A stretch of 64,000 nucleotides of DNA from Actinomadura sp. DC4 (GTDB taxonomy: Bacteria; Actinomycetota; Actinomycetes; Streptosporangiales; Streptosporangiaceae). Made by a program: the position numbers and the translations under genes. Within the stretch, counting starts at the first letter, position 1. Each line of letters starts with the position of its first letter. The stretch is taken from assembly GCF_030406325.1 (NCBI RefSeq), contig NZ_JAUEQY010000009.1, positions 248,001 to 312,000 on the forward strand, read 5' to 3'. This document shows, one piece after another, positions 45,947 through 64,000 of the stretch. The notes below the pieces were generated by a model. The model was not told the DNA's origin. It did no database searches and saw only the letters and a list, made by a program, of their open reading frames with translations.

Positions 45947-46221
45947 TCAATGCGCGCGTCGGGCCTGCGGCTTCCTGTCTGCGGACGGGACGGTGGCACG
46001 GGCGGCGGCCGGCGAGTAGAGGCCCACCACGTGGTGGCCGAAGTCCACCGCCGCCGGTGCCGGCGCGGAGAGGTTCGGCGTGAACCTCGTGCCGGTCGTG
46101 GCATCCACCCCAGTACGTGCCGCCCGGGTGTCACGACGGGGATCGGCGTGGCCGCCGGGGCGACGAGGACGATCTGGAAGGCGGACGAGGCGGAGGTCGC
46201 GTACGCGGGCGGGGACGCCAT
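45947..46221 (-). pseudogene. Possible small frameshifted gene following the carbamoyltransferase
   Basis: An ATG at 46221 with GAAGG six bases before it lies 25 bases past the carbamoyltransferase stop. It opens MASPPAYATSASSAFQIVLV and continues to TPIPVVTPGRHV, with almost every third base G or C. The coding signal then moves to another frame reading GVDATTGTRFTPNLS and VDFGHHVVGLYSPAAARATV, ending at a TGA at 45947-45949. Joined, this gives about 90 residues of no family I know. It may be a broken gene, a sequencing error, or chance coding-like sequence. Confidence 0.4.
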
Positions 46222-46246
46222 GACGCGCCTTCCGCCACGCGACCTC

Positions 46247-47887
46247 TCAGCCGGTGCGCTCCAGTACGTGGTCGTCGAGGACAAGGACGTCCAGCTCGCT
46301 CCGCATGAACGTGGACAGGGCGTCCTCGGGTGAGCTCACGATGGGCTCGCCGGCCAGGTTGAAGGACGTGTTGAGCACGGCCGGCGTGCCGGTGCGGTCG
46401 CGGAACGCCTCGATCACCTCGTAGTAGCGCGGCGTCCATTCCCGGCGTACGAACTGCGGCCGCGCGGTGCCGTCGACGTGCACCGTCGCCGGCATCAGCG
46501 GGCGTACGCCGTCGCGCACGAGAGTCGCTCCGAGCATGTAGTGGCCTAGGTCGCCGACGTCGTGCGCGAAGACGCGGTCGCGGTCCTCGGCCAGCACGCT
46601 GGGCGCGAGCGGCCGCCACAGCTCCCTGCCCTTGACCTGGTTCAACCGGCCGACCATCGCGCGGTGCCGCGGGTCGGCGAGGATGCTCCGGGCGCCCAGC
46701 GCCCGCTGCCCGACCTCGGCCCTGCCCTGATACCAGCCCACCAGGCGGCCCGCGGTGAGGTGCTCGGCGACGCAGTCGACCAGGTCGGAGTCGGAGAGCC
46801 GCTGGCCGGCCAGCGGCGCGGTCTCCGCGACCTCCGCCACCTGTCCGGAGTAGTCGCGGCCGAGGTAGGCGCCCACCCTGCCGTTCACGGTGGACATGCC
46901 GGCCATGCCGCCGTCCTTCGCGGCCAGCAGGGCCGCGCCGGCGGCCACGCCACAGTCGTAGGCGAACGGCGGCACGTAGAGCTCCTCGACCGACGGGTGG
47001 CGCGCGAGCTTCCCGTTGGCGGAGCAGTTCATCGCGACCCCACCGGCCAGGACGACGTTGGCGCAGCCCGTCGCCGACACGGCGGCGCTGAACAGGGAGC
47101 TCAGCGCGGTCTCCAGGGAGGACTGCACGGAGGCCGCGAAGTCCGCGTACGCCATGATCTCCACACCGTCGCCCTCCCCGTACGGGAAGCACGCGGAGAA
47201 GTAGGGCGTGACACTGCGGTTCAGGGCCTCACGCAGTTCCGGCATGGTCCGGTTCGGCACTCGCTCAGCTCCGGCCAGCCGGTAGCCGTCCGAGGTCACC
47301 TCGATCGGCATCGCCATCGCCGGAGCGCCGTACGCGGCCAGGCCCATGAACTTGCCGACGTCGGTGGGCCCGAGCCCGGTCCACGACGACGCCTTGCTGT
47401 AGTAGCGGCCCAGTGACTCGGCGAGGTCCCACTGGGCCAGCTGCTTGAAGTCGTCGGCCTCGGCGTAGTACGTCGTCGTGGCGGCGTCCTCGCCCCGCCC
47501 ATCCGTGATGATCACCGTCGCCCGGTCCCAGCCGCTGGTCCAGAACGCGCTGGCGGCGTGCGCCAGATGGTGGCCGTAAAAACGGATCGGGATCTCCTCG
47601 GGAACGCCGATGCGCTTCCGGAAGACATCCAGGGGGAAGCCTCGTCCCTCCAGCGCGAAGTATTTCGGCATATCCCAGCCGACGGCGACGCACGAGACGT
47701 CGCTCAGCGCGATGCCGGCGTCTTTCAGGCAGGTCATCATGGCGTCACGAGGTGACTCGTTGACCGCGCGCTTGCGGCGGCTGATCCGTTCCTGCTCGAC
47801 CAGTGAGATTATCTTACCGTCCTTCAGCAATGCCGCCGAGGCGTCATGTGATCCGGTATTGATCCCAACGATATAGGTACTCGACAT
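46247..47887 (-). CDS. Carbamoyltransferase (NodU/CmcH/TobZ family)
   Basis: A 546-residue O-carbamoyltransferase that would use carbamoyl phosphate and ATP to carbamoylate a hydroxyl on a small molecule or peptide. The N-terminal Kae1-like domain begins YIVGINTGSHDASAALLKDG and holds the metal/ATP site GHHLAHAASAF (His106, His107, His110). Later come VVLAGGVAMNCSANGKL and, in the C-terminal YrdC-like-linked part, EVGQRALGARSILADPR and TPAVLNTSFNLAGEPIV. These enzymes are typical of antibiotic tailoring. It is divergent from the peptide gene at 48111, sharing a 220-base promoter region, so it most likely belongs to that locus. Confidence 0.93.
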   Translation of the reverse strand: MSSTYIVGINTGSHDASAALLKDGKIISLVEQERISRRKRAVNESPRDAMMTCLKDAGIALSDVSCVAVGWDMPKYFALEGRGFPLDVFRKRIGVPEEIPIRFYGHHLAHAASAFWTSGWDRATVIITDGRGEDAATTTYYAEADDFKQLAQWDLAESLGRYYSKASSWTGLGPTDVGKFMGLAAYGAPAMAMPIEVTSDGYRLAGAERVPNRTMPELREALNRSVTPYFSACFPYGEGDGVEIMAYADFAASVQSSLETALSSLFSAAVSATGCANVVLAGGVAMNCSANGKLARHPSVEELYVPPFAYDCGVAAGAALLAAKDGGMAGMSTVNGRVGAYLGRDYSGQVAEVAETAPLAGQRLSDSDLVDCVAEHLTAGRLVGWYQGRAEVGQRALGARSILADPRHRAMVGRLNQVKGRELWRPLAPSVLAEDRDRVFAHDVGDLGHYMLGATLVRDGVRPLMPATVHVDGTARPQFVRREWTPRYYEVIEAFRDRTGTPAVLNTSFNLAGEPIVSSPEDALSTFMRSELDVLVLDDHVLERTG

Positions 47888-47963
47888 GGATACTTCTCCT
47901 TCGCGCCGAAAAAAGCCTCTCAATAAGGAACACCGCTGTCAAGGTGGACGGATATCGCTATTG

Positions 47964-47979
47964 CCGTAACGCGTTACGG
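47964..47979. promoter_or_regulatory. Palindrome in the carbamoyltransferase-peptide divergent promoter
   Basis: CCGTAACGCGTTACGG is a perfect 16-bp palindrome about 77 bases before the carbamoyltransferase start and 130 before the peptide gene. It is a candidate regulator site. Confidence 0.45.
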
Positions 47980-47990
47980 GGCTGCTGACC

Positions 47991-48019
47991 TGGCAATACA
48001 AGTGCCTCATTGCGATAAT
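47991..48019 (+). promoter_or_regulatory. Candidate promoter for the 27-residue peptide gene
   Basis: TGGCAA at 47991-47996 and GATAAT at 48014-48019 are separated by 17 bases. They lie in an AT-richer stretch 92 bases before the peptide start. The -10 is good; the -35 is weak, as expected for an activator-dependent (for example SARP) promoter. Confidence 0.4.
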
Positions 48020-48023
48020 TCGT

Positions 48024-48047
48024 CGCCTGTCAGGCACCTGACAGGCG
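48024..48047. promoter_or_regulatory. Inverted repeat just downstream of the candidate -10
   Basis: CGCCTGTCAGG and CCTGACAGGCG are perfect 11-bp arms separated by two bases. Placed at the likely transcription start of the peptide gene, this could be an operator or a 5' leader hairpin. Confidence 0.5.
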
Positions 48048-48110
48048 GTTGCCAGTGAGGTGATAGCGCGGTGTGCTAAAACAAATCGGAACAAGGGGAG
48101 GTGAACACAA

Positions 48111-48194
48111 ATGGGTGAGACCACCACGGCCCTCGATGTCGTCGAGGACACGTCGGAATACGACGTGATGCTTCTCCAGTGCGAGTGCTACTAG
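48111..48194 (+). CDS. Putative RiPP precursor peptide 1 (27 residues)
   Basis: A short gene with an excellent ribosome site (GGGGAGG, nine bases before ATG). The product starts MGETTTALDV, has an acidic middle (EDTSEYDV) and ends LLQCECY. Length, acidity, the Cys/Tyr-rich tail and placement directly before two SagB-type dehydrogenase genes and a peptidase are what is expected of a ribosomal precursor with an N-terminal leader and a C-terminal core. A strong hairpin follows the stop, allowing excess precursor over enzymes. I recognise no known precursor family. Modification sites (two Cys, Tyr, Glu) are inference. Confidence 0.72.
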   Translation: MGETTTALDVVEDTSEYDVMLLQCECY

Positions 48195-48213
48195 TAAGAC
48201 ACAGGTAAGTCGG

Positions 48214-48256
48214 TGTCGTGGTGCCGGCGCTGGCAGACGGCGACGGCACCACGACA
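48214..48256 (+). terminator. Hairpin (terminator or attenuator) between the peptide and first SagB genes
   Basis: A perfect 13-bp stem with arms 48214-48226 (TGTCGTGGTGCCG) and 48244-48256 and a 17-nt loop, 19 bases after the peptide stop codon. It should partly stop transcription or protect the upstream peptide mRNA, raising the peptide-to-enzyme ratio. It also excludes an earlier start for the SagB gene. Confidence 0.65.
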
Positions 48257-48292
48257 TTCGACCGTTGCCGCCGAGTGACGTCTGAGGGCCTC

Positions 48293-49444
48293 ATGCTCGT
48301 GCGAATCAATCCAGCGGTCCGAGTGATTCCGCCGTCGGAGCTGGTCGGCGATCGCTGGATAGCGGAGAATCTGCTTGAGAAGAAGCGTTACAACCTTCAG
48401 GTGCCCGCGGCCGCGGCGCTCACCGCCGCGTTCCGGCCGCGTACGCCGGACGACCTCGCCGGGCGCCTGGCGGACCACGATCCCCAGCGGAGGCCGGCGG
48501 CGTACTGGTCGGGTCTGGTCGAGGTGCTGCGCGACCGCGCGCTGATCGTCGAGGCGTCGCGGGCCGCAGGCGACCCCCGGCTCGGCTGGCTGGCCGGGCT
48601 CCGTGAGAGCTGGAGCCGGTACGGCTGGGCCGAGGCCGCCGAGTACCACACGCTCGCCTACGACTACCCGTGCGTGGACTACTCCGAGGCGGCGGGCACG
48701 TACTTCGACCACGATCGCATGCGCGCCTACCAGGCCGTGGAGCCCGACACCGACCGGTACAAGCTGGACTACGCCGACCGGCCCGGGCTCCCGCTTCCCC
48801 CGCCCGGCGAGGAGATGGCGCCCGGGACGGTGCGCACCGTGTGGGGCGACGAGCGGCTCCGGAGCCGGGTCGACGTCGAGGCCCTCTCCCGGGTCCTGTC
48901 GCTGTCCTTCGGCGCCACCGGGGTGCGGGTGCCGATCACCGACGCGGCGCCGCTGCTGCGCAGGAGCAGCCCGTCTGGAGGAGGGCGTAACCCCTCCGAG
49001 GGATACGTGGTCGTCCGGGACGTCGCCGGCGTCGAGGCGGGCCGCTACCACGTCACGATGCAGCCGTTCGGCCTGCGAAGGCTGGAAGACGGCGGCCCCA
49101 TCGACGACGAGCAGATCCGCAGGATCTTCCCGGAGACCAGCCGGCGGTTCTCCGGCGACGTTCGGGCGCTGGTCGTCATCACGAGTTTCTTCGAGCGCAA
49201 CATGTACCGCTATCGCGAGCCGCGCACCTTCCGGACGGTGCACATGGACGCGGGACACATCGCGAGCACGCTGTCGATGTCGGCGCGCGCGCTGGGACTG
49301 AGTGCCGGCGTCTACGACCGTGACGCGGCCGCGGACGTCGAACAGGCCCTGGGGATCCGGGGCATGCGGGAGGGCTACCTGCTCACCGTCGCCATCGCCG
49401 ACGGCGCCGAGCCGGCGGAGCACGCACAGGGAGAACGACCATGA
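48293..49444 (+). CDS. SagB-type FMN-dependent dehydrogenase 1
   Basis: A 383-residue nitroreductase-fold enzyme of the SagB/ThcOx group, which in known RiPP pathways oxidises azolines to azoles. The flavin-binding signature is LRRSSPSGGGRNPSEGYVVV. MQPFGLRR, RNMYRYREPRTFRTVHMDAG and SMSARALGLSAGVYDRD follow, as in the family. The first 170 residues form the occluded N-terminal region seen in full-length SagB proteins. ATG 48293 has GAGGG; earlier starts fall inside the hairpin. Its stop overlaps the next SagB gene (ATGA). No cyclodehydratase is encoded nearby, so the substrate bond is unclear. Confidence 0.88.
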   Translation: MLVRINPAVRVIPPSELVGDRWIAENLLEKKRYNLQVPAAAALTAAFRPRTPDDLAGRLADHDPQRRPAAYWSGLVEVLRDRALIVEASRAAGDPRLGWLAGLRESWSRYGWAEAAEYHTLAYDYPCVDYSEAAGTYFDHDRMRAYQAVEPDTDRYKLDYADRPGLPLPPPGEEMAPGTVRTVWGDERLRSRVDVEALSRVLSLSFGATGVRVPITDAAPLLRRSSPSGGGRNPSEGYVVVRDVAGVEAGRYHVTMQPFGLRRLEDGGPIDDEQIRRIFPETSRRFSGDVRALVVITSFFERNMYRYREPRTFRTVHMDAGHIASTLSMSARALGLSAGVYDRDAAADVEQALGIRGMREGYLLTVAIADGAEPAEHAQGERP

Positions 49445-50520
49445 CGTCGGCTGCAAGCCCGGGGGCCCGCTGGCCGGCCGGATTCAGGATGAGGCCCGCC
49501 GCGGACCCGGAGTCGGCGGAGGTCGAGGTGACCGACGCGGCCACCGGCCGGCGGTTCCACTGGTCTCCCGAGACGCTGTCCGAGCACATCATGCGCGGCG
49601 ACACCGACCTCGCGACGCTGGACGACGGCGACGAGTGGAAGAACGCCCTCAAGACCTCGGACGAACGCCGTGAGCTCATCCCCGACTGGCGGCACTGGCA
49701 GCATCGCCGCTGGCACCCGTCCGACCACTACTACCTCGTCTCACGGCTCGGCGGGCAGGCGCAAGAGGCCGACGTCGACGACTCCATCCGCCTCAGCATG
49801 ATCGATCTCTTCCTGCTGGCGGACGGGCCGCCGCCGGAGGAGCGGCGCCCGGACGGCCCGGTGCTGTCGCTGGGCACGCCGCCGCCCCTCGGCGAGCAGG
49901 AGATCTCCCGGCTGCTCGTGACCCGCCGCAGCGGGCGCTCCTACATCAGGCGGGCGCCCTCGCTGGACAGCCTCTCGGCCCTGCTCTGGTACGGCCTCGC
50001 GGAGGTGCGCGCGGGCCGGCGCGACACCGGCCGGCTCGACCCGGCCACCTACCTGGACTGCTACGGCGCCGCCTGGGACTTCTACCTCTGCGTCTACAAG
50101 GTCGACGGAGCCGAGCCGGGCGTCTACCGGTACGACGTGCTGAACCACGAGCTGATCGGTGTACGGCCCGGTGACCACCGCGACGCCATGATCGACGTCC
50201 TCCAGGGCATGCACTCGCCGGCGACCGCGGCGTGGACCCTCGGGCTGGTCGCCGACTTCCCCCGCTACCAGTGGCGCTACCGGCACGAGCACGGCCTGCG
50301 GCGTCTCTACCTCGAGGCGGGCGTCCTCGGCCAGCAGCTCATCGTCCTGGCCATGGCGTACGGCCTGAACACGCTGGTCACGCCCGCGCAGAAGGACCGC
50401 GCCTACCTGGCGCTGCACGACCTTCCCGAGGACCGCTTCGCGCCGGTCTACACACTCACGATGGGGCTCTCTCGCGGCAGCGAGGGCGTCGGCTTCGACA
50501 ACGCCCCGGGCGCCTCGTGA
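49441..50520 (+). CDS. SagB-type dehydrogenase 2
   Basis: A 359-residue second SagB-like flavoprotein, diverged from the first. The N-terminal part has WRHWQHRRWHPSDHYYLVSR, as in SagB proteins. The nitroreductase core has LLVTRRSGRSYIRRAPSLD, LSALLWYGLAEVRAG, YRYDVLNHELIGVRPG, RRLYLEAGVLGQQLIVLAMA and the closing YTLTMGLSRGS. The RSxPSGG flavin motif of protein 1 is altered, so the two may form a heterodimer or one may be inactive. Overlapping starts (ATGA, GTGA) place it in an operon with SagB 1 and the S9 peptidase. Confidence 0.85.
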   Translation: MTSAASPGARWPAGFRMRPAADPESAEVEVTDAATGRRFHWSPETLSEHIMRGDTDLATLDDGDEWKNALKTSDERRELIPDWRHWQHRRWHPSDHYYLVSRLGGQAQEADVDDSIRLSMIDLFLLADGPPPEERRPDGPVLSLGTPPPLGEQEISRLLVTRRSGRSYIRRAPSLDSLSALLWYGLAEVRAGRRDTGRLDPATYLDCYGAAWDFYLCVYKVDGAEPGVYRYDVLNHELIGVRPGDHRDAMIDVLQGMHSPATAAWTLGLVADFPRYQWRYRHEHGLRRLYLEAGVLGQQLIVLAMAYGLNTLVTPAQKDRAYLALHDLPEDRFAPVYTLTMGLSRGSEGVGFDNAPGAS

Positions 50521-52379
50521 CCGCGTCACCGGTGCTCGACGGCTCACGGCTCAGGCGGGCGCTGCTCGCCGTCGAGCGCGACACCGCGCCCAGGCTGTCG
50601 CCGGACGGCCGTTCGATCGCGTTCGTGCGGACCGACGACAACGGCCCGGAGCTGTGGATCCGCACCGGCGACGGCGCCGAGCGCCGGCTCGCCGCGCACC
50701 ACGGGGAGGCGATCCAGGACCTCCGGTGGACGGCCGACGGCTCGACGCTGCTCTACCGGCACGCCCCGCGCGGGCGCGAGTCCTGGAGCCTTTCGGGACT
50801 GCGCGGTGCCGCCTTCGAGCCGATCACGATCGCCGCGCGGGGATCGGTCACCGGTTACTGGCCCTCCGGCACGGACCCCGACGCGCTCGCTTACAGCCGG
50901 CGCGGCCCGGGGAGCGGTCGCGGGGACCTGTACCGGGCCGACCTCGGCGACCCCGGCGGCGAGCACCGCCGGATCGCGGTGAACCCGGGGTTCCACCGCT
51001 GGCTCGTGGACGGCGCGCTCCGGCCGCGCGGCGGTACCCGGCTCGCCGAGGACGGCTCGACGACGATCGTGCTGGGCGGCGACCTCGACACGGGGCGCGA
51101 CGTGCTCACCGTGCCGGTCGACGCCGTCCCCGACCTGGCCGTGTACGGCTTCAGCCGCGACGGCGATCGTCTCTTTCTCCTGACGGGCGGTGAGACGGGC
51201 ACGCGACGGCTGGTGGCGGCCGACTCGGGTGACGGCACGACCTCGACGGTCTTCGAGCACCCGGAGCTGGACGTCGGCGGCTACCCGATCGGCAACGACG
51301 GCGTGTGGTTCGACCCGGTGACCGGGCGGCCGGACGTCTGCGCGGTCATGGACCAGCGGCTGCGCTACCACGGGCTGACCGAACGGGCGCGCGCCGCCGT
51401 CGCGCGCCTCGCCGCCACCGACGAGCACTCCGCGGTCATCATCGACCGGAGCGCGGACGACCGTACCTGGCTGATCGTCTACGTTCACGACGACGGCCCG
51501 ATCGCCTACCACTCCTACGATCCCGTCACCGGGGCGACCGAGCCGCTGTTCGTCAACCGGCCCGACCTCGCCGGGCACCGGCTGTCACGGCTCGAGGACT
51601 TCCGTTTCACCGCGGACGACGGCCGCGAGCTGAGCGGGTACGCGATGCGCCCGCGCGCGGGAACGGCGCCGTTCCCGACGGTCGTACTCGTCCACGGCGG
51701 CCCGGCCAGCCGCGACTACTGGCGGTTCCACGCCGACGCGCAGTACCTGGCGTCGCTCGGCTACCTGTCGCTGCACGTCAACTACCGGGGGTCGAAGGGC
51801 TCCGGCGGCGAGTTCCGGATGGCGGGCCACGGCGAGTGGGGCGGCCGGATGCAGCGGGACCTGTACGACGCGGTGGCGCACGGCGTGTCGGCGGGGCTGG
51901 TGGACCCGGGCCGGGTCGCGTTCTTCGGCGCGTCGTACGGCGGCTACGCCTCACTGCTCGCCGCCTGCACCCGGCCGGATCTCGTGCGTTGCGCGGTCGC
52001 CATCAGCCCGCCCTGCGACCTGGTCTCCTTCACCCAGAAGCCGCCGCCGTACTGGCAGCCGCTCGCCGTACTGCTCCGGCGGCAGGTGCTCGGCGACCGT
52101 GGCGGCCGGCCGCTGGGGGAGCAGGCGCTCCGCCGCCGGTCACCCCTCCAGTCGCTGGACGCCTCGTGCGCGCCGGTGCTGCTCGCGCACGGCGTACGCG
52201 ACCCTCGCGTGCCGGTCGCGGAGGTCGACCTGTTCGCGGACCGGGCGCGAGATCTCGGCGTCCCGGTCCGGTACCTGCGGTTCGAGGACGAGGGGCACCA
52301 CGTGAGGTCCAACGTCAACCGGCGGGCCCTCTTCACCGAAGTCGAGCATTTCCTGGAGGCACACCTTGGCGCCCGCTAG
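50517..52379 (+). CDS. S9-family prolyl-oligopeptidase-type peptidase
   Basis: A 620-residue cytoplasmic serine peptidase. A beta-propeller with PD40-like blades (PRLSPDGRSIAFVR, LRWTADGSTLLYRH) covers residues 1 to about 370. The alpha/beta-hydrolase domain carries Ser473 (GASYGGYASL), Asp562 (GVRDPRVP) and His594 or His595 (EDEGHHV). In RiPP pathways such enzymes can remove leaders or trim cores, and that is the likely role beside a precursor and SagB genes. GTG 50517 overlaps the SagB 2 stop. It is distinct from the S9 fusion at 29819. Confidence 0.9.
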   Translation: MTASPVLDGSRLRRALLAVERDTAPRLSPDGRSIAFVRTDDNGPELWIRTGDGAERRLAAHHGEAIQDLRWTADGSTLLYRHAPRGRESWSLSGLRGAAFEPITIAARGSVTGYWPSGTDPDALAYSRRGPGSGRGDLYRADLGDPGGEHRRIAVNPGFHRWLVDGALRPRGGTRLAEDGSTTIVLGGDLDTGRDVLTVPVDAVPDLAVYGFSRDGDRLFLLTGGETGTRRLVAADSGDGTTSTVFEHPELDVGGYPIGNDGVWFDPVTGRPDVCAVMDQRLRYHGLTERARAAVARLAATDEHSAVIIDRSADDRTWLIVYVHDDGPIAYHSYDPVTGATEPLFVNRPDLAGHRLSRLEDFRFTADDGRELSGYAMRPRAGTAPFPTVVLVHGGPASRDYWRFHADAQYLASLGYLSLHVNYRGSKGSGGEFRMAGHGEWGGRMQRDLYDAVAHGVSAGLVDPGRVAFFGASYGGYASLLAACTRPDLVRCAVAISPPCDLVSFTQKPPPYWQPLAVLLRRQVLGDRGGRPLGEQALRRRSPLQSLDASCAPVLLAHGVRDPRVPVAEVDLFADRARDLGVPVRYLRFEDEGHHVRSNVNRRALFTEVEHFLEAHLGAR

Positions 52380-53634
52380 TTCACCCGGCCTGCGGATGCG
52401 GTCGCGCTACACGCGCAGCGACCCCAAGGGCCTGTTCCCCCGTCTCACCGGCCTTCCCGAGCTGCCGCACAACCGGCTCGGCGCCTTCTGGCGGCCGATC
52501 ATCGACATGACCGACAGCGACCTGGCGTCGTCCCGGCTCCGCATGATCCGTCCGGTCGCCTCCTGGCTGGCCGATCCGGCCTCGGCCGAGCCACTGTGGT
52601 TCGCGCGGATCAACGTCGCGGGCCTGCGTCACCAGGTGATCCGGCACTCGGGTCTGAACGCGTACGACTGCCAGGAGCCGAAGGACCTGGCCGAGGAGCT
52701 GCGCACGCCCGAGTGGGAGACGCTGGTACGGGCCATCGACGGGTTCGAGGACCTGGACTACTACGTCCGTACGATCGTGCTCTTCCAGCTCGCCCAGCTC
52801 TCCTACTGCGAGCTGGGGGTACGGCTGGCCGGTGACGTCGAGCCCGACGGCGATCCCGTTCGCGACCGGTACGTCTACCAGGTGGCCCGGCTGCACGCGC
52901 GCCTGCCCGGCAGCAGGCCGCTCGCCCTGCGGCTCTTCGAGCGGCTCGCCACGTCGTCCAAGGACTCGCTGCTGGCGCTGCTGTCGTGCTTCCAGGGGAT
53001 CAGCCACGCGATCCGCAAGGAGGACGACCTCGACCTGGCGTGCCGGTTCGAGCGGTACGGCCACGCGATCACCGGCCTGCCCGGCGACTGGCACACCTAC
53101 CTGGTCAAGAGCCGCTTCCACCGGGCGCTGGCCCTGCTCCGCCTGAACGAGCGCCGGTTCGGGGAGATGCGCGACGAGCTGGAGACGGCCCTGGACCTCC
53201 ACGAGAGACTGCGTCCCGAGGTGTCCGGCGAGATCGACACGATGGTCGCGAACGAGAACCGGCGCATCCTGCTGGAGTCGCAGATCAACGCCGCGATCCG
53301 GGCCCGCGGTGACGAGTCCGCGACCCAGGTGCGGGCGCTGTGCGAGGAGATCATCGGGCTCGACCCGTACTGCGTGCTGGTCAGGCTCGCCGTAGGTGAC
53401 GGGCACGCGGCCATCGGCGACCACGCCGAGGCGGCGCGCTGGTTCGAGCGGGCCGGCGAACTGGGCACCGGGGCCGGCGCGATCGGGTGGTTCCGCGCGG
53501 GGCAGTGCCACGACTTCCTCGGCGACCGCGGCGCCGCCGTCAACGCCTACGGACGCTGCCTGGAACTCGACGCGACGGCCGTCGAGCCCCGCGAGTATCT
53601 GACCACGGGCCGCCGGCCGGGCGATCCGGCATGA
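52366..53634 (+). CDS. TPR-like protein of unknown function, copy 1
   Basis: A 422-residue soluble protein with no enzyme motif I recognise. The N-terminal 170 residues are distinctive: RSRYTRSDPKGLFPRLTGLP, LGAFWRPIIDMTDSDLASSR, RMIRPVASWLADPASAEP. The remainder is all-helical and repeat-like, ending in GDHAEAARWFERAGELGTGA and GDRGAAVNAYGRCLELDATA, which are typical TPR units. The protein at 55695-56900 is a clear paralogue with the same order of motifs. A scaffold or peptide-binding role in the RiPP locus is plausible. TTG 52366 has GGAGG; ATG 52396 is the alternative and aligns with the paralogue start. Confidence 0.75.
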   Translation: MAPASSPGLRMRSRYTRSDPKGLFPRLTGLPELPHNRLGAFWRPIIDMTDSDLASSRLRMIRPVASWLADPASAEPLWFARINVAGLRHQVIRHSGLNAYDCQEPKDLAEELRTPEWETLVRAIDGFEDLDYYVRTIVLFQLAQLSYCELGVRLAGDVEPDGDPVRDRYVYQVARLHARLPGSRPLALRLFERLATSSKDSLLALLSCFQGISHAIRKEDDLDLACRFERYGHAITGLPGDWHTYLVKSRFHRALALLRLNERRFGEMRDELETALDLHERLRPEVSGEIDTMVANENRRILLESQINAAIRARGDESATQVRALCEEIIGLDPYCVLVRLAVGDGHAAIGDHAEAARWFERAGELGTGAGAIGWFRAGQCHDFLGDRGAAVNAYGRCLELDATAVEPREYLTTGRRPGDPA

Positions 53635-55077: not shown

Positions 55078-55674
55078 GTGACCGAACACCTCATCGAGGT
55101 CCCGCCGCTGTCCGCGAAGGCCCAGGCGATCGCGGACAAGGGCAGATGGGGCCTCTCGTCGGACCGGCAGACGGGCGCGCTGCTGCGGACTCTCGCCGCG
55201 AGCAAGCCCGGGGGGCGGATCCTGGAGATCGGCGCCGGCGTGGGCGTCGGCTCCGGCTGGCTGCTGGCCGGCATGGACTCCGCGGCCCGGCTGACGACCC
55301 TGGAGCTGTTCCCCGGCCTGGCCAAGGCCTGTGCGTCGGTGCTCGCCGCCGACGGCCGCGCCGAGGTGGTGCACACCGACGCGGTGGACTGGCTCACCGC
55401 CTACGCGGGCCCGCCGTTCGACCTGGTCTTCGTCGACACGACCATCCTCAAGTTCGAGCGCCGCGACCTGGTCTTCGCGCACCTGGCCGACGGGGCCCTG
55501 TTCGTCGCCGACGACCTGCTGCCGCAGGAGAAGTGGACCGAGGCCCACTATCCGCGCGTCGAGCGGTTCCGTGAGGAGATCATGGCCGAACCGGACCTGG
55601 TGCCCACGCTGGTGGACTGGGCCTCCGGGCTCGTCATCGCGAGCCACCGCAAGAGCGAAAGGCCGGGGCCCTGA
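55078..55674 (+). CDS. SAM-dependent O-methyltransferase-like protein
   Basis: A 198-residue class I methyltransferase. Motif I is GGRILEIGAGVGVGSGWLLA, motif II LTTLELFPGLAKACASVLAA, and the FDLVFVDTTILKFERRDLVF block resembles motif III/IV of the catechol-type O-methyltransferase group, although the metal-binding set is incomplete. It might methylate a hydroxyl or carboxyl in the product. GTG 55078 follows AAGGAG. The stop lies 18 bases before the second TPR gene. Confidence 0.85.
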   Translation: MTEHLIEVPPLSAKAQAIADKGRWGLSSDRQTGALLRTLAASKPGGRILEIGAGVGVGSGWLLAGMDSAARLTTLELFPGLAKACASVLAADGRAEVVHTDAVDWLTAYAGPPFDLVFVDTTILKFERRDLVFAHLADGALFVADDLLPQEKWTEAHYPRVERFREEIMAEPDLVPTLVDWASGLVIASHRKSERPGP

Positions 55675-57059: not shown

Positions 57060-59888
57060 ATGAGCCCGTTGGGTGATCCCGGCCTCGCCGCGCGAGCCGG
57101 GTGCGGCCGGCGCTTCGAGTTCGGGCTCCTAGGTCCGCTCACGGTGACGTACGACGGGGCTCCCGTTCAGGTCAAGGCGGCCAGGCAGCGGGCGCTCCTC
57201 GCGTCGCTGCTGGTCGACGCCAACCAGATCGTGCCCGCCGACGAGCTGATCGCCCGCGTGTGGCGGACCGGCTCCACCGAGAACGCGCGGGCCAATCTGC
57301 ACACCTACGTCATGCGGCTGCGCCGTGTGCTCGCGGGCGGCGGTGCGCCCGTCCCCATCATGACCAGGCCTGAGGGATACCTCATCGAGGTGCCGGACGA
57401 CGCGCTGGACCTGTACCGGTTCGACGTGCTGGTGGACGAGGCGAAGACCGCCGAGCCGGCGCGGGCGTCCGCCCTGCTGGACGAGGCACTGACGCTCTGG
57501 TCCGGCGCACCGCTGTCCGACGTCTCGTCGGAGTTCCTGCACCGTGAGATCGTGCCCGGCCTGGCCGAGCGGCGGCCGCTGGCGCTGGAGGCGTACGTGG
57601 ACGCGGAGCTGGCGCTCGGCCGCCACCACGACCTGCTCGTCAGGCTGCGGGACCTGACCGCCCGGCACCCGCTGCGGGAACGGTTCTGGACGCAGCGGAT
57701 GATCGCTCTGTACCGCTGTGGACGGCAGGCCGAGGCGTTGGAGTGCTTCCGTACGGTCGGCGCGCTGCTGGCCGAGGAACTGGGCGTCGAGCCCGGCGCC
57801 GAGCTCCAGGAACTGCACCAGGCGATCCTGGCCGGGGATCCACGCCTCGCGACGCCGGCTCCGAGAGTCCGGTTCCGGCGTGACGACCTGCCGGGCGAGG
57901 TTCCCGGCTTCACCGGACGCTGGGCCGAGACGCGGCGCCTCGTCACCGCTATCGACGAGGCCGGACCCGACGCGGCCGTGGTCGTCCTGGCGATCGACGG
58001 GATGGCCGGGGTCGGCAAGACCGCGCTCGCCGTACGCCTGGCCCATCGGTTCGCCGGCCGCCACCCCGACGCACGGCTCTTTCTCGACCTGCACGGCCAC
58101 ACCGCCGGTCGCGAGCCCGTCGACCCCGCCGAGGCGCTCGACGTCCTGCTGCGCGCCGTCGGCGTGCCCGGCGAGCGCATCCCGGAGCGCGCGGAGGAGC
58201 GGGCCGCGATGTGGCGGGACGAACTCGCCGGCCGGCGGGCGCTGATCGTCCTCGACAACGCCGCCGGTGCCGCGCAGGTACGGCCGCTCCTGCCCGGGGG
58301 CGGCGGCTGCCTGGTGCTGGTCACGAGCCGGCGTCGGCTCGCCGATCTGGACGCGTCGGAGACGCTGTCCCTCGACGTCCTGCCGCCCGGGGACGCCACG
58401 ACGCTGTTCGCCGGGCTGGTCGGGGAGGCGCGGGCGGACGCGGAGACGGACGCGGTCGCCGACGTGGCCGAGGCGTGCGGGTACCTTCCGCCGGCCATCC
58501 GCGCCGCCGCCGGGCGGCTGCGCGGCCGCCCGGCGTGGACCATCGGCCACCTGGCCCGGCGGCTGCGCGAGCATCGGCCGCGGCTCGACGCGTTGACGCC
58601 GTCGTACGAACACCTGACGCCGGACGGGCGGGACCTGTTCCGCCTGCTGGGCGTGCTTCCCGGCGCGGGCGTCGACGCCTGCCTCGCCGCCGCGGTGGCC
58701 GGGATCGGTCTCGACCGGGCCGACCGGCTGCTCGAAAATCTCGTCGACGTGCACCTGCTCGAGCAGCCCGCACCCGGCCGCTACCGCCTGCACGACCTGG
58801 TCCGCGGCTTCGCCTGCGCGACGGCGCGCGCGACCCTGCCGGACGCGTCGCGGCGGGAGGCGGCCGGGCGGATGCTCGACTACTACCTCCACGTCGCAGG
58901 CCTCGCCGACCGGCACTTCGGCGCCGGCCGTCCCACACCGGCGCGCCCGCCCGCTCACGTGCCGCCCATCGCGGACCAATCCGCGGCGCTGGCATGGTGC
59001 GACGAGGAGTACGCGAACCTCGTCGGGGCGGTCGCGTACGCGGCGGCGCACGGCTGGGACGAGCACGCCTGGCGACTGCCGCACTCGCTGTGGCGGTTCT
59101 TCTCCATCCGTCACCACGTCGAGGACTGGATCGCCACCCACCGGCTCGCGCTGGCCGCCGCGGACCGGCGGGGTGACCGTACCGCCCAGGCCAGGACGCT
59201 GAGCTCGCTCGCCGTCGCGTACCTGCGGGTCGGCCGCCACGACGACGCGGCCGGCCATCTCCGGCGCGCCCTGGCCCACTTCCGCGAGGCCGGCGACCGC
59301 TGGGGCGAGGCCGAGTGCCGGAGCCACCTCGGCCACGTCCTCGGGCGGCTGGGCCGCCACGACGAGGCCGCCGGCCTCATCCACCGGTCCCTCGCCTACT
59401 TCCGTGAGGCCGGTGACGGCTGGGGTGAGGCGGGGGCGCTCAACGAGCTCGGCGCGGTCCTCCGGGAGCTGGGCCGCCACGACGAGGCCGCCGGCCTCCA
59501 TCGCCGGGCGGTCGTCCGCACCCGTGAGATCGGCGACCGCTGGGGCGAGGCCCGATCGCTCGGCGGCCTCGGCGCCGCCGTCGCCGGACTGGGCCGGTAC
59601 GACGAGGCCGCCGGCCACCACCGCCACGCCCTCGCTCTCTTCCGCGCGATCGGCAACGCCTGGTACGAGGCCCGCAGCCTGGACGACCTCGCCGCCGCCT
59701 ACCGCGGCCGCGGCGACCACGAACGCGCGGTGACCCTTCATCGGGAGGCCCTGGCCCTGATCCGTACCCTGGGCGACCGCGACGCCGAGAACGTCATCCT
59801 CGCCGGCCTGGCCGAGACCAGCCGCCGCGCGGCGCGGCACGTCCGCGGTGCCGCCGCGGATCCGTCCCACGGCGTGGTGCCCTGCTGA
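57060..59888 (+). CDS. SARP-family regulator with NB-ARC and TPR domains, copy 1
   Basis: A 942-residue AfsR-like activator. The winged-helix DNA-binding and BTAD domains cover about residues 20-265 (FEFGLLGPLTVTYDGAPVQV, RQRALLASLLVDANQIVPAD, LHTYVMRLRRVL). The NB-ARC ATPase has P-loop GMAGVGKTALAVRLAHR near 316 and RALIVLDNA. About six C-terminal TPR units follow from 690 on (RYDEAAGHHRHALALFRAIG). SARPs activate secondary-metabolite operons through direct repeats overlapping -35 elements. It lies directly downstream of the RiPP operon on the same strand and is a likely pathway-specific activator. Confidence 0.92.
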   Translation: MSPLGDPGLAARAGCGRRFEFGLLGPLTVTYDGAPVQVKAARQRALLASLLVDANQIVPADELIARVWRTGSTENARANLHTYVMRLRRVLAGGGAPVPIMTRPEGYLIEVPDDALDLYRFDVLVDEAKTAEPARASALLDEALTLWSGAPLSDVSSEFLHREIVPGLAERRPLALEAYVDAELALGRHHDLLVRLRDLTARHPLRERFWTQRMIALYRCGRQAEALECFRTVGALLAEELGVEPGAELQELHQAILAGDPRLATPAPRVRFRRDDLPGEVPGFTGRWAETRRLVTAIDEAGPDAAVVVLAIDGMAGVGKTALAVRLAHRFAGRHPDARLFLDLHGHTAGREPVDPAEALDVLLRAVGVPGERIPERAEERAAMWRDELAGRRALIVLDNAAGAAQVRPLLPGGGGCLVLVTSRRRLADLDASETLSLDVLPPGDATTLFAGLVGEARADAETDAVADVAEACGYLPPAIRAAAGRLRGRPAWTIGHLARRLREHRPRLDALTPSYEHLTPDGRDLFRLLGVLPGAGVDACLAAAVAGIGLDRADRLLENLVDVHLLEQPAPGRYRLHDLVRGFACATARATLPDASRREAAGRMLDYYLHVAGLADRHFGAGRPTPARPPAHVPPIADQSAALAWCDEEYANLVGAVAYAAAHGWDEHAWRLPHSLWRFFSIRHHVEDWIATHRLALAAADRRGDRTAQARTLSSLAVAYLRVGRHDDAAGHLRRALAHFREAGDRWGEAECRSHLGHVLGRLGRHDEAAGLIHRSLAYFREAGDGWGEAGALNELGAVLRELGRHDEAAGLHRRAVVRTREIGDRWGEARSLGGLGAAVAGLGRYDEAAGHHRHALALFRAIGNAWYEARSLDDLAAAYRGRGDHERAVTLHREALALIRTLGDRDAENVILAGLAETSRRAARHVRGAAADPSHGVVPC

Positions 59889-59953
59889 GCTCGTCACCGC
59901 GACGCCGGGCTCGCGCGGGTAGCCGCGAAAATGACCCACCGGAGGAGCGGGAG

Positions 59954-62752
59954 ATGCGCGTCGAGTTCGGAGTATTGGGGGAGATCTGCGCCCGGGTGGA
60001 CGGCCAGGCGGTCGACTTGGGCCCGCAGCGGCAGCGATGCGTGCTCGGGGTGCTCCTCGCCGATGTCAACCGGCCCGTCTCCGCCGACCAGCTCGTCGAC
60101 CGCGTCTGGGGAGCGGATGCGCCGCAGCGGGCCGCGGAGACGCTGCGCAGTTACCTGTCCCGGCTGCGCGTCGCGGTGCCGGCCGCCGGGGAGTGGGGCA
60201 TCCGGCGCCGCTCCGGCGGCTATCTCCTCGAGATCGACGAGGCGGCGGTGGACCTGCACCGGTTCCGCCGTCTGGCGGACCGGGCGCGCGCCGGCGAGGA
60301 CGCCACCGCCGCGGTGGCGCTGTACGAGCAGGCGCTGGGACTGTGGCGGGGCGACGCGTTCGCCGACCTGGGCATCCCCTGGCTGACCGGCCTGCGCCAC
60401 ATGCTCCAGGCCGAGCGTTTCGCGGTGCAGCTGGACTGCCACGACGTCCGGCTACGGCGTGGTGAGGCGGCGACGCTGCTCGCCGGCCTCACGGCGCTGG
60501 CCGCCGTACAGCCTCTGGACGAACGGCTGGCCGGGCAGCTCGTGCTCGCCCTCTATCGCAGCGGCCGCCAGGCCGACGCCCTGGAGCACTACGAGCGGAT
60601 GCGGCGGCGGCTGGCCGACGATCTGGGCGCCGATCCGGGCCCGGCCCTCCAGCGGCTCCACCGCCAGATCCTCACCGGCGACCCCGCGCTCACCGAGACC
60701 GCCGCGCCATCCGTCCACGTGACCACGGCGCCGCCGGTCCTGCGGCAGCTTCCGGCGCCGCCGCCCTTCTTCACCGGCCGGTCCCGGGAGCTGGCCGCCC
60801 TCGACCGGGCGCTGGACACACGAGGCGAGGCGGGGAGGACGGTGGTGATCTCCGCGATCGGCGGTGGCGGCGGCATGGGCAAGACCTGGCTCGCCCTGCA
60901 CTGGGCCCACCGGAACATCGCAGAGTTCCCGGACGGGCAACTGCACGTCAACCTGCGCGGCTTCGACCCATCGGGCTCGCCGATGCCGCCGGAGGTGGCC
61001 GTACGCACCTTCCTCGACGCCCTCGCCGTGGCCCCGTCGGGCATTCCCGCGGAGCTGGACGCGCAGGCCGCGCTGTACCGCGGTCTGGTGGCCGACCGGC
61101 GGATGCTCATCGTGCTGGACAACGCCCGCGACACCGCGCAGATCGCTCCCCTGCTGCCGGGCGGATCCTCGTGCACCGTTCTGGTCACCAGCCGCCACCA
61201 GCTCACCGGTCTGGTGACCGGCCACGGCGCGCATCCGATCACCCTGGACGTCCTGGAGCCCGCCGAGGCGCAGCAGGTGCTCACCCGCCACCTGGGCACC
61301 GGCAGGGTCGGGGCCGAGCCCGAGGCGGTGGCCGAGCTGCTGGATCACGCCGCCGGGCTGCCGCTCGCGCTCGGCATCATCGCGGCCCGCGCGGCCATGC
61401 GCCCCGGCCTCCCCCTCAGCGTCCTCACCAAGGAACTGGGCCGGGACTACGCCCGGCTGGACTCCCTGGACGCCGGGGAGGCCACCGCCAACCTCAGGGC
61501 GGTGTTCTCCTGGTCCTATCGCACGCTGACCTCACAGGCGGCCCGGCTGTTCCGGCTTCTGGGGATCCACCCCGGTCCCGACATCGCCGAGCCCAGTGCG
61601 GCCAGCCTGGCCGGTCTCACCCTCACCCAGGTGCGCCCGCTGCTGGCCGAGCTGGCCCGCGCGCATCTCATCACCGAGCACAGCGCCGGGCGGTACGCCT
61701 TCCACGACCTGCTGCGCGCCTACGCCACCGAACAGGCCCACAGCCTCGACACCCCGGACGAGCGGCGTACGGCACTGCACCGTGTGCTGGACCACTACGT
61801 GCACACCGCGCACACCGCCGCACTGCTGCTCTACCCACACCGCCATCCGATCACCCCGTCCACGCCCCGCGAGGGGGTCACCCCCACCGGACTGGCCGAC
61901 CACCAGCAGGCGATGGCCTGGTTCACCGACCAGCACGCGGTGCTGGTCGCGGCCGTCCACGAGGCCGCCGACCTCGGGTTCGCCACCCACGCCTGGCAGC
62001 TGGCCTGGGCGCTGGTGACCTACTTCGACCAGCAGGGGCACTGGCGCGACCTCCTCTCCACGCAGAGTGCCGCCCTCGACGTGACCCGGCGGGAGGGGGA
62101 CCGGCTCGGGCAGGCCCACGCCCACTCCGGCCTGGTGCGGGCCTGCACGCGGCTCGGCCGCCATGACGACGCCCGCGCGAGCCTCGACCGCGCGCTCGCC
62201 CTGTTCACCGAGCTCGGGGACCGGATCGGCCAGGCCAACACCCACCGCGGCCTCGGCTGGCTGCTCGAAGCGCACGACCGCCACGGCGAGGCCCTCGGCC
62301 ACGCCCGGCAGGCCCACGACCTGTACCGGGAGGCCGGTCACCGAGCCGGGCTCGCCCACGCCCTCAACGCGATCGGGTGGTACCACAGCCTCCTCGGCGA
62401 CCACCGCCAGGCCCTCGTCCACTGCGAGCGGGCCCTCGAACTGCACCAGGAACTCGATCACCGGCAGGGGCAGGCCGCCACCTGGGACACCATGGGCCAC
62501 GCCCACCACCATCTCGGCGACCACGCGAAGGCCGCGGACTGTTACCAGCACGCCCTGAGACTGTTCCGCGAGGTCGCCGACCGCTACAACGAGGCCGACA
62601 CGCTCATCCGCCTGGGCGACACCCACCACGCCGTCGGCGACCGCCGCGCGGCCGGCGACGCCTGGGAGCGCGCCCTGGAGGTCCTGGACGAGCTCGGCCA
62701 CGCCGGCGCCGACCAGGTCCGGGGCAGGCTCAAGCGGCTGCGGAGGACCTGA
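59954..62752 (+). CDS. SARP-family regulator with NB-ARC and TPR domains, copy 2
   Basis: A 932-residue second AfsR-like regulator. It has a winged helix and BTAD domain (MRVEFGVLGEICARVDG, RQRCVLGVLLADVNRPVSAD, LRSYLSRLRVAV), an NB-ARC part with P-loop GGGGMGKTWLALHWAHR near 308, and TPR units to the end (GDHRQALVHCERALELHQEL, GDHAKAADCYQHALRLFREV). GGAGGAGCGGGAG precedes the ATG. It stands 65 bases after copy 1 and 100 bases before peptide gene 2. Two such regulators in tandem suggest control of two transcription units, perhaps one for each precursor. Confidence 0.92.
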   Translation: MRVEFGVLGEICARVDGQAVDLGPQRQRCVLGVLLADVNRPVSADQLVDRVWGADAPQRAAETLRSYLSRLRVAVPAAGEWGIRRRSGGYLLEIDEAAVDLHRFRRLADRARAGEDATAAVALYEQALGLWRGDAFADLGIPWLTGLRHMLQAERFAVQLDCHDVRLRRGEAATLLAGLTALAAVQPLDERLAGQLVLALYRSGRQADALEHYERMRRRLADDLGADPGPALQRLHRQILTGDPALTETAAPSVHVTTAPPVLRQLPAPPPFFTGRSRELAALDRALDTRGEAGRTVVISAIGGGGGMGKTWLALHWAHRNIAEFPDGQLHVNLRGFDPSGSPMPPEVAVRTFLDALAVAPSGIPAELDAQAALYRGLVADRRMLIVLDNARDTAQIAPLLPGGSSCTVLVTSRHQLTGLVTGHGAHPITLDVLEPAEAQQVLTRHLGTGRVGAEPEAVAELLDHAAGLPLALGIIAARAAMRPGLPLSVLTKELGRDYARLDSLDAGEATANLRAVFSWSYRTLTSQAARLFRLLGIHPGPDIAEPSAASLAGLTLTQVRPLLAELARAHLITEHSAGRYAFHDLLRAYATEQAHSLDTPDERRTALHRVLDHYVHTAHTAALLLYPHRHPITPSTPREGVTPTGLADHQQAMAWFTDQHAVLVAAVHEAADLGFATHAWQLAWALVTYFDQQGHWRDLLSTQSAALDVTRREGDRLGQAHAHSGLVRACTRLGRHDDARASLDRALALFTELGDRIGQANTHRGLGWLLEAHDRHGEALGHARQAHDLYREAGHRAGLAHALNAIGWYHSLLGDHRQALVHCERALELHQELDHRQGQAATWDTMGHAHHHLGDHAKAADCYQHALRLFREVADRYNEADTLIRLGDTHHAVGDRRAAGDAWERALEVLDELGHAGADQVRGRLKRLRRT

Positions 62753-62770
62753 GCGGCAGCGGCCCGGCCA

Positions 62771-62789
62771 GCGGATTCCACGAATCCGC
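62771..62789. other. Inverted repeat before peptide gene 2
   Basis: GCGGATT and AATCCGC flank a five-base loop in the 100-base gap between the SARP gene and peptide gene 2. It could end the SARP transcript or be an operator. Confidence 0.4.
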
Positions 62790-62854
62790 AGCGTTTCTGC
62801 AACGCCGCCGAAGCAGCCTGGTCCCTGCCATCCGTTCCAGGGAGGGAGGGTGAA

Positions 62855-62962
62855 ATGGACGAGCTGCGCAATGGCGTCGAGCTGCCGGAAAGCGAGGAGG
62901 CACTCCTCGCCGACTTCGGTGTGCTGGTCGCGGCCGAGTACGACTACTCGCTCGGCGGCTGA
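62855..62962 (+). CDS. Putative RiPP precursor peptide 2 (35 residues)
   Basis: A short gene with an exceptionally strong ribosome site (AGGGAGGG four bases before ATG). The product begins MDELRNGVELPESEEA, is acidic, passes through a hydrophobic stretch (ADFGVLVAA) and ends EYDYSLGG. A hairpin follows the stop, then the halogenase gene. Two tyrosines near the C-terminus are natural substrates for a phenol-type halogenase. The EYDxxL pattern also occurs in peptide 1 (SEYDVMLL), hinting at a common origin or a shared enzyme-recognition motif. Cleavage and core boundaries are unknown. Confidence 0.68.
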   Translation: MDELRNGVELPESEEALLADFGVLVAAEYDYSLGG

Positions 62963-63007
62963 TCGGACCCTTACTGCCGTGGGCGGAGCTCATCGGCCCG
63001 CCTCCGT

Positions 63008-63042
63008 CGCCGGAGGCGACCTGTTCCGGGTCGCCTCCGGCG
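63008..63042 (+). terminator. Hairpin between peptide gene 2 and the halogenase
   Basis: A perfect 14-bp stem (arms 63008-63021, containing GCCGGAGGCGACC, and 63029-63042) with a 7-nt loop, 45 bases after the peptide stop. The arrangement mirrors the hairpin after peptide gene 1. Confidence 0.68.
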
Positions 63043-63126
63043 GCCCGCCCGGTCGTTTCGCCGCGCCGGCGCGTTCATGAAGGCCCGTTGTCCCGAGCGA
63101 TGCCCTGACAAGGTGGTTCCGATCTC

Positions 63127-64000
63127 GTGAGTGAGTCGCGCGAAGACTGCGATGTGCTGGTGGTCGGTGGCGGTCCGGCCGGAAGCTGTGCCGCGGGCCT
63201 GCTCGCCAGCCGCGGTGTCTCGGTCACGCTCATCGAGGGAGCGAGGTTTCCGCGGAGCCACATCGGCGAGTCGCTCCTCGCCATGTCGATGCCCTATCTG
63301 CGCAGCTGGGGCGTGGGCGACATCGTCGACGGCGCCGGCTTCGTTCTCAAGTCCGGTGCCATCTTCCGGTGGGGCGGGCAGAAGAACGAGATGCGGCTGG
63401 GCATGCCGCATCCCGGTTATGCCTATCAGGTGTCGCGGGACGAATTCGACGACCTGCTGCTGCGGCGCGCGGAAGCGGCCGGCGTGCGGGTGGAACGGGA
63501 GACCTGGGCCCGCGAGCTGTCCTGTGACGGTGCGGGCGACGTCGACGGGGTCCTCACCCAAGAAGGCACTCTCAAGAGACGGCTGCGGGCGAAGTACGTC
63601 ATCGACGCCAGCGGGCTGTTCCAGTTCGTACCCCGTTCGCTCGGGCTTCCGTCGGCGGACGACGGTCATCAGCGTGTCGCCGTGGGCGCCTACTACGAGG
63701 GCGCCGGAAGAACAGCGGGCGACCGCCGCAACGACATCATCACCGAGGCCGCCGACGACAGCTGGCTGTGGTTCATCCCGCTGAGCGATGAGATCACCAG
63801 CGTCGGCATGGTCACCGACGCCGACCTGGTCGAGCACCGTCATCCGCAGAAGTCGATCGACCAGGCGATCGGGGAGACCCACCTGATCAGGGGACTTCTG
63901 GAGACGTCGCGGCCGGCCCGCCGGGGCCGCCTGCTGCGGTACACGAACCACGTCGTCACCGCCCCGATGTGGGACCGGGGCTATGTGCTGGTCGGTGACA
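63127..64000 (+). CDS. Flavin-dependent halogenase, cut by the window end
   Basis: The first 291 codons of a FADH2-dependent halogenase-type flavoprotein; the reading frame stays open to the last base. The dinucleotide site is DVLVVGGGPAGSCAAGLLAS. The catalytic-lysine region is FVLKSGAIFRWGG with Lys75, close to the Lys71-79 position in characterised halogenases. The family motif WxWxIP is SWLWFIPLS with Trp213, Trp215 and Pro218. The form resembles phenol/pyrrole-type rather than tryptophan halogenases. GTG 63127 is preceded by AAGGTGG. With a Tyr-rich precursor gene directly upstream, a tyrosine of peptide 2 is the natural candidate substrate. Confidence 0.85.
   Translation, partial: MSESREDCDVLVVGGGPAGSCAAGLLASRGVSVTLIEGARFPRSHIGESLLAMSMPYLRSWGVGDIVDGAGFVLKSGAIFRWGGQKNEMRLGMPHPGYAYQVSRDEFDDLLLRRAEAAGVRVERETWARELSCDGAGDVDGVLTQEGTLKRRLRAKYVIDASGLFQFVPRSLGLPSADDGHQRVAVGAYYEGAGRTAGDRRNDIITEAADDSWLWFIPLSDEITSVGMVTDADLVEHRHPQKSIDQAIGETHLIRGLLETSRPARRGRLLRYTNHVVTAPMWDRGYVLVGD

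Follow-up and report, generated by a model that had tools for sequence, protein, structure and literature searches.

Paired SagB genes beside a conserved short peptide gene in Actinomadura sp. DC4: a possible YcaO-independent oxidation of a ribosomal peptide

In a 64,000-nucleotide stretch of Actinomadura sp. DC4 (hereafter the window; bases 248001-312000 of contig 101, NZ_JAUEQY010000009.1, in a genome of 10.67 Mb), a 27-residue peptide gene, pepA, lies directly upstream of two SagB-type nitroreductase genes, sagB1 and sagB2. By sequence comparison, this pepA module is a conserved family resembling ribosomally synthesized and post-translationally modified peptide (RiPP) systems, and its precursor peptide recurs beyond chance. 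The usual reading of SagB enzymes is that they serve YcaO pathways as azole dehydrogenases; no YcaO match was found on the window's contig, including the 21,973 bases that extend past the window. The best explanation of the whole, which we hold at somewhat less than an even chance, is a leader-guided, YcaO-independent oxidation, likeliest an alpha,beta-desaturation of the C-terminal Tyr.

The pepA operon and its relatives

An earlier note on this DNA had named a 27-residue peptide gene with a following hairpin, the SagB pair, an S9 peptidase, TPR paralogues, a MATE exporter, a methyltransferase, a carbamoyltransferase, SARP regulators, a second peptide gene and a halogenase-like gene, and all of these were found. 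Open reading frames (ORFs) of the window were called with a simple caller of our own in place of a standard gene-calling program. On the + strand from 48111 the order is pepA, sagB1, sagB2, S9 peptidase, TPR1, MATE exporter, MT1, TPR2, SARP1 and SARP2. The features of the putative pathway are:

48111..48194, +, pepA, precursor peptide of 27 residues with leader end DVVEDTSEYDVMLLQ and core CECY; ORF with ribosome site, leader end kept in six of seven relatives, nonsynonymous below synonymous difference (pN < pS)
48204..48269, +, hairpin in the gap between pepA and sagB1; z -5.2, predicted in all eight loci
48293..49444, +, sagB1, N-terminal RRE-like domain and nitroreductase domain, PSGG present and RxSxR absent at the usual place; profile, structure and motif comparisons
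49441..50520, +, sagB2, nitroreductase-fold partner, RxSxR present and PxGG absent at the usual place; profile, structure and motif comparisons
50532..52379, +, S9 (prolyl-oligopeptidase-type) peptidase, candidate leader peptidase; Pfam S9, in all four closest relatives
52396..53634, +, TPR1, TPR-superhelix protein; 61% identity to TPR2, AlphaFold2 model, TPR folds in the PDB
53631..55046, +, MATE exporter; NCBIfam TIGR00797 above cut-off, in all four closest relatives
55078..55674, +, MT1, S-adenosylmethionine-dependent methyltransferase; Pfam PF13578 above cut-off, 58-69% identity in all four closest relatives
55695..56900, +, TPR2, paralogue of TPR1; sequence comparison

The pepA gene starts with ATG, and the sequence upstream of it is GGGGAGGTGA. 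For sagB1, the ATG at 48293 is the most likely start instead of the upstream GTG at 48218, since it is the start used by the four closest relatives and the hairpin overlaps part of the interval 48218-48293. The hairpin is stable when compared with 100 shuffles, and across the eight loci the predicted hairpins of the peptide/sagB1 gap have z values of -1.9 to -5.2 and unrelated sequences.

A pattern scan of one genome per species (84,980 species) returned six loci, and a plasmid search added that of Thermus thermophilus SG0.5JP17-16. Five loci make up the TPR branch, namely those of the window, Rhizocola hellebori, a metagenome-assembled genome (MAG), Paractinoplanes ovalisporus and Actinoplanes sandaracinus. 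All four relatives of the window in this branch carry sagB1, sagB2, the S9 peptidase, at least one TPR gene, the MATE exporter, MT1 and a flavin reductase gene; their reductases are only 26-53% identical, and the only one found for the window belongs to a second module described below. A ThiF/E1-like gene stands directly after sagB2 in three of the eight loci (Sphaerisporangium, Pelagibius and Thermus); the gene set conserved across the five TPR-branch loci has none. The Pelagibius and Thermus loci have in common a MATE gene and a protein that matches DUF885 at a score under the Pfam cut-off, and the annotated genes of the Thermus stretch include no flavin reductase. By score, the paired family was found in three of 345 genomes of the order, the window's included. 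When 1.5 kb was examined on each side, the window was the only case among 396 genomes of its phylum, and the 385 genomes of Pelagibius' class gave Pelagibius and one diverged SagB pair.

In seven of the eight loci, which span three phyla, the small gene directly upstream of the SagB pair encodes a common leader end (...VVEETSAYDVMLLQ), with a doubtful peptide in the eighth. The boundary between leader and core, placed after Gln, is our own reading:

Window: leader end DVVEDTSEYDVMLLQ, core CECY
Rhizocola hellebori: leader end DVVEETSAYDVMLLQ, core SSAY
MAG: leader end DVVEETSAYDVMLIQ, core GRIY
Paractinoplanes ovalisporus: leader end EVVEETLAYEVMLLQ, core TSYY
Actinoplanes sandaracinus: leader end DIVEETSAYEVMLLQ, core SIDMY
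Pelagibius litoralis: leader end GIEELPAFDLALMQ, core TCGDGDSDPGW
Thermus: leader end VIQELEPFDLALVQ, core GCGDIAQ
Sphaerisporangium rufum (doubtful): leader end VEALPEMPIALRQ, core MEASRP

A score built from the five TPR-branch peptides ranks the Pelagibius peptide first among 195 small ORFs of its own locus and the Thermus peptide first among 142; the Sphaerisporangium peptide comes only third among 78 and is therefore doubtful. Over the 16 leader codons of the TPR-branch peptides, pN is below pS in ten of ten pairs. Peptide length ranges from 27 to 52 residues among the loci. All five TPR-branch cores end in Tyr, the sole residue common to them, and Cys, Ser or Thr is present in seven of the eight cores, with two Cys in the window's CECY and none of the three residues in the MAG's GRIY. 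The combination that characterizes a RiPP, a short precursor with a conserved leader and a variable core beside modifying enzymes, was found in seven of the eight loci. The earlier note had made its reading depend on conservation of both peptide genes beside these enzymes, which was borne out for the pepA leader end in six of seven relatives (the seventh doubtful) and for the second peptide gene, pepB, in two genomes.

Further features of these loci were observed. A radical SAM C-methyltransferase (rSAM_ocin_1, 611 bits) is encoded after the last TPR gene of the MAG locus (L035:8659-10599, - strand), and a luciferase-like monooxygenase gene (PF00296; L048:7502-8359) stands just upstream of the Rhizocola peptide gene. 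The annotated start of the Thermus SagB1, WP_196795863.1 (from 215), is probably too late; an in-frame ATG at 74 (L088:74-1186) restores the N-terminal part conserved among the other SagB1 proteins. A diverged SagB1/SagB2 pair (L108:361-2479) lies on an A+T-rich contig of a small alphaproteobacterial genome, with no recognisable precursor on its 5.7 kb. In Pelagibius litoralis a second methionyl-tRNA synthetase gene adjoins the locus (L052:11882-13657, - strand), flanked by ORFs that by eye look transposase-like, and may provide self-resistance. As a general reading, self-resistance through an extra aminoacyl-tRNA synthetase was left unused, only Pelagibius having a clear second copy: the isoleucyl-tRNA synthetase beside the MAG locus is the sole match above the family cut-off in that genome, and the valyl-tRNA synthetase about 7 kb from the last Thermus locus gene is a full-length match of very high identity to the T. 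thermophilus enzyme 1gax.

Flavin-site motifs of the SagB pair and the YcaO question

Both SagB proteins carry the nitroreductase domain PF00881 above the Pfam cut-off and score 71.4 and 55.1 bits, below the NCBIfam SagB cut-off of 78.4. The N-terminal domain of SagB1 has an RRE-like fold (RRE, RiPP recognition element) in a predicted structure of moderate confidence (pLDDT 68.6), so that a leader-binding domain in a modifying enzyme, a further mark of RiPP systems, is predicted here.

In all eight loci the flavin-site motifs are divided, with PxGG on SagB1 and RxSxR on SagB2. The controls were 27 other SagB-like proteins, that is, 30 loci among the matches listed minus the window and two paired-family loci; they come from one order and were taken regardless of YcaO neighbours. 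With our first pattern, PS[AGS]G, just 13 of the 27 had both motifs on one chain, variants such as P-C-G-G, P-A-G-G and P-Q-G-G being present. The pattern was broadened to P-x-[AG]-G after the data had been seen; 26 of 27 controls then had both (the exception, L033, lacks RxSxR), and none of the eight SagB2 proteins matched it at the usual place. Because the motifs are split over the two SagBs and kept together in 26 of 27 controls, SagB1 and SagB2 probably form an obligate heterodimer that carries a single flavin. The Lys-Tyr pair of SagB has a catalytic role. It is replaced by Arg-Tyr in all eight SagB1 and seven of eight SagB2 proteins, and Lys-Tyr is present in 26 of the 27 controls.

YcaO matches were found in six of the nine genomes or records searched, and in the four of these that carry the SagB pair they never lie on the pair's contig; the window's own genome has two, both on contig 45. 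No YcaO match was obtained in two genomes with an intact gene set (G048 and G346), those of the MAG (98% complete) and P. ovalisporus, or in the Thermus record, which is a plasmid only and short of a whole genome. Oxidation of azolines by the SagB pair is unlikely because YcaO was found in neither of these two genomes, one core lacks Cys, Ser and Thr, and the Lys-Tyr pair is altered. For the same reasons we consider ordinary azole chemistry, in which a YcaO encoded elsewhere forms azolines in the pepA peptide and the SagBs oxidise them, to be exceedingly improbable, even with two YcaO matches on another contig of the window's genome, others on separate contigs of four other pair-bearing genomes, and Cys, Ser or Thr in most cores. 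The earlier proposal that this is a RiPP-like locus lacking YcaO, in which the SagB pair probably takes a different route, is supported.

Proposed mechanism and its rivals

In the proposed mechanism, pepA and its operon would make a short RiPP. The RRE-like domain of SagB1 would bind the conserved leader end VVEETSAYDVMLLQ, and the two SagBs would form a single composite FMN site in which RxSxR of SagB2 grips the FMN phosphate and SagB1 supplies PSGG. The heterodimer would remove two electrons from the core without a YcaO-made azoline, most likely at the Calpha-Cbeta bond of the C-terminal Tyr, and the product would be a peptide with a C-terminal dehydrotyrosine. Thereafter, in a presumed order, MT1 would methylate, the S9 peptidase would cut off the leader, perhaps after the invariant Gln, and the MATE protein would export the product. 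The TPR proteins may be peptide-binding or scaffold subunits; the AlphaFold2 model of TPR1 is all-helical (pLDDT 89.6) and resembles TPR proteins in general in the PDB. Methylation of the pepA product, as the earlier note had it, is plausible because MT1 is found in all four closest relatives.

A peptide with a C-terminal Tyr is an N-acyl-tyrosine, and all five TPR-branch cores have Tyr in that position. Desaturation at this residue is favoured for these reasons and because of two precedents: in excerpts of PMC12636437, Z-dehydrophenylalanine of a RiPP is formed by the PflD nitroreductase domain, and in excerpts of PMC10404671 (also PMC12479983), TyzC uses O2 to desaturate N-acyl-tyrosine and the ThiF-like TyzB closes an oxazolone. 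The PflD authors, in the same excerpts, suggest that other YcaO-unlinked nitroreductases yield other dehydroamino acids and call YcaO-unassociated nitroreductases in RiPP clusters rare and functionally uncharacterized.

Several observations weigh against Tyr desaturation by a split SagB. The ThiF-branch cores (TCGDGDSDPGW, GCGDIAQ and the doubtful MEASRP) have no terminal Tyr, and Tyr is therefore no universal target. Since Cys, Ser or Thr occurs in seven of eight cores and CECY has two Cys, the cores alone leave room for heterocycle or thiol chemistry. The flavin reductase gene of the four closest relatives would be superfluous for plain O2-coupled dehydrogenation, confidence in the SagB1 model is moderate, and among the controls L029 likewise has Arg-Tyr and L033 is without RxSxR.

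The conserved reductase gene would be accounted for if the SagB pair were an oxygenase: with reduced flavin from the reductase it would activate O2 and hydroxylate the C-terminal Tyr, and MT1 would then O-methylate the product. The conserved methyltransferase, the invariant Tyr of the TPR-branch cores and the absence of a flavin monooxygenase gene among the part of the ORFs of L050 and L051 that were compared or scanned are consistent with this. However, the luciferase-like monooxygenase of Rhizocola (L048:7502-8359) could partner the reductase there, the Thermus stretch has no annotated reductase, those of the four relatives are weakly alike and the window's belongs to the other module, so that we regard an oxygenase as unlikely. 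A similarly low probability is given to action elsewhere in the core or on the backbone, such as oxidative decarboxylation or Cys/Ser/Thr chemistry, or, in the ThiF branch, conversion of an E1-activated C-terminus to an oxazolone as in tyrazolones. The ThiF/E1-like gene right after sagB2 in three loci, the production of acyl-oxazolones by ThiF and nitroreductase proteins (excerpts of PMC10404671) and the core composition point in that direction, but the five TPR-branch loci have no ThiF in their conserved gene set, and their cores have nothing but the C-terminal Tyr in common. The predicted hairpin that follows a short ORF in all eight loci could also mean that pepA serves as a regulatory leader ORF in place of a precursor, with its translation controlling the hairpin by attenuation. 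This is highly improbable, given that the conserved part is an acidic motif within the peptide while the C-terminus varies, that SagB1 has an RRE-like domain and that the peptide ranges so widely in length.

The adjoining pepB module and comparison with known systems

The remaining features of this part of the window are:

57060..59888, +, SARP-type regulator 1; BTAD/Trans_reg_C/NB-ARC/TPR domains
59954..62752, +, SARP-type regulator 2; domain scan
62855..62962, +, pepB, 35-residue precursor of a separate second module, ...LLADFGVLVAAEYDYSLGG; homologues in L090 and L091
63127..64000 (end 680 bases past the window), +, FAD-dependent halogenase/monooxygenase-like gene, first enzyme of module 2; a homologue in L091 has 45% identity
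46247..47887, -, NodU-type carbamoyltransferase, probably outside the conserved pathway; Pfam, no tblastn match in ten relative loci

The pepB module, which runs past the window edge, occupies window positions 62855-64000 and L003:127-11779. It comprises the halogenase/monooxygenase-like gene, TPR3, TPR4, an alpha-ketoglutarate (alphaKG)-HExxH hydroxylase, an E1-like ThiF protein, a flavin reductase, an MFS exporter, an M16-like peptidase and a methyltransferase. The four TPR proteins belong to one family (TPR1/TPR2 61% identical; TPR1/TPR3 26%, E 9e-16; TPR3/TPR4 E 2e-10). Homologues of pepB occur in two genomes of the window's family, G148 (...LLEEFGTLMSAEYNYMAQ) and G180 (...LLEEFGVLLAAEYNYQAQ), whose loci have two TPR genes, at least two HExxH-like genes, ThiF, M16 and MFS; the G180 locus additionally has FAD, methyltransferase and flavin reductase genes. 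Full-length SagB1 (at least 495 bits) was found in seven of nine genomes and the module-2 ThiF (at least 250 bits) in three of nine, and only the window's genome has both. Two genomes thus hold the pepB module without a full-length SagB pair, and six hold the SagB module without the E1-like gene of the pepB module.

As judged from gene content, the window holds two neighbouring, separable RiPP modules that share a TPR family, and because the modules occur apart, it is these that the earlier reader had seen as one. A single pathway with two precursors was rejected, since full-length SagB1 and the module-2 ThiF occur apart in all of the nine genomes searched except the window's; pepB and the halogenase-like gene open another conserved RiPP module, and the locus-wide product proposed earlier should be split in two. 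Halogenation of the pepA product accordingly finds no support, nor does its carbamoylation, which was rejected as the carbamoyltransferase gave no tblastn match in the ten relative loci of nine records, a result that holds for those stretches with their limited flanks. Sequence to the right of 64000, where a class-defining enzyme had been thought possible, contains no YcaO to the contig end; the HExxH hydroxylase (TIGR04267 above cut-off, outside the pepA gene set) and the E1-like gene do lie there, but with pepB.

Elsewhere in the window, genes for a cytochrome P450, a polyprenyl synthetase and a terpene synthase stand in a row at 8491-12033, likely a terpene pathway, and a single 1097-residue gene at 29819-33112 fuses an S9 peptidase to a domain of the beta-lactamase family, with oligopeptide-binding and enolase-superfamily genes nearby.

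That a conserved SagB pair comes with a precursor of its own, in a family that includes two genomes where YcaO was not found, suggests that this enzyme family may have a second role in RiPPs. In its widest form, the proposal is of a RiPP family in three phyla with a split, heterodimeric SagB having one composite flavin site, a leader-guided, YcaO-independent desaturase that would turn 4-5-residue cores into C-terminal dehydrotyrosine peptides, and of an adjoining sister family with the same TPR proteins, an HExxH hydroxylase and an E1-like protein; taken whole, this is possible yet doubtful. The locus is a compact test substrate, with a core of 4-5 residues and a known leader end, and the question of YcaO-unlinked nitroreductases is testable with three genes. 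The TPR family, common to two RiPP modules, is a possible new handle for genome mining.

The present system is not described in the titles and abstract openings among the literature matches listed, or in the excerpts of PMC13060819, PMC12452194 and PMC12710340. Azol(in)e peptides and thiazole/oxazole-modified microcins (SagB, McbC) are alike in their SagB-type nitroreductase-fold oxidase, and McbC and ThcOx were matched; here, in contrast, no YcaO is in the locus, the flavin motifs lie over two chains, Arg-Tyr stands for Lys-Tyr, and one core of eight has no Cys, Ser or Thr. PflD, an MNIO-nitroreductase fusion of the pfl RiPP, is, in the excerpts of PMC12636437, likewise a YcaO-unlinked nitroreductase-fold RiPP oxidase and dehydrogenates an aromatic residue, whereas the present system has a two-gene pair, no MNIO among the genes scanned, a short core and another precursor. 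The acyl-oxazolone pathways of TyzB/TyzC and OxzB share a nitroreductase-superfamily oxidase that acts on N-acyl-Tyr with O2, partly with a ThiF partner, but as excerpted from PMC10404671 they use non-ribosomal N-acyl amino acids, a single-chain oxidase (TyzC, predicted with a single flavin site) and no leader; if our explanation is true, pepA-type products would correspond, on the ribosomal side, to N-acyl dehydrotyrosines and tyrazolones. In the tandem nitroreductase Ava_2154 (PDB 3eo7), the N-terminal half matches SagB1 best and the C-terminal half SagB2; it is one fused Anabaena chain, titled a putative nitroreductase, where we find two genes. The cyclodipeptide oxidase AlbA/AlbB (PDB 8uc3, 9exv) also has the nitroreductase fold and, according to the entry titles, carries out C-C oxidation of cyclodipeptides, but it is a filament with cyclodipeptide substrates, whereas the pair described here would act on leader-bearing peptides.

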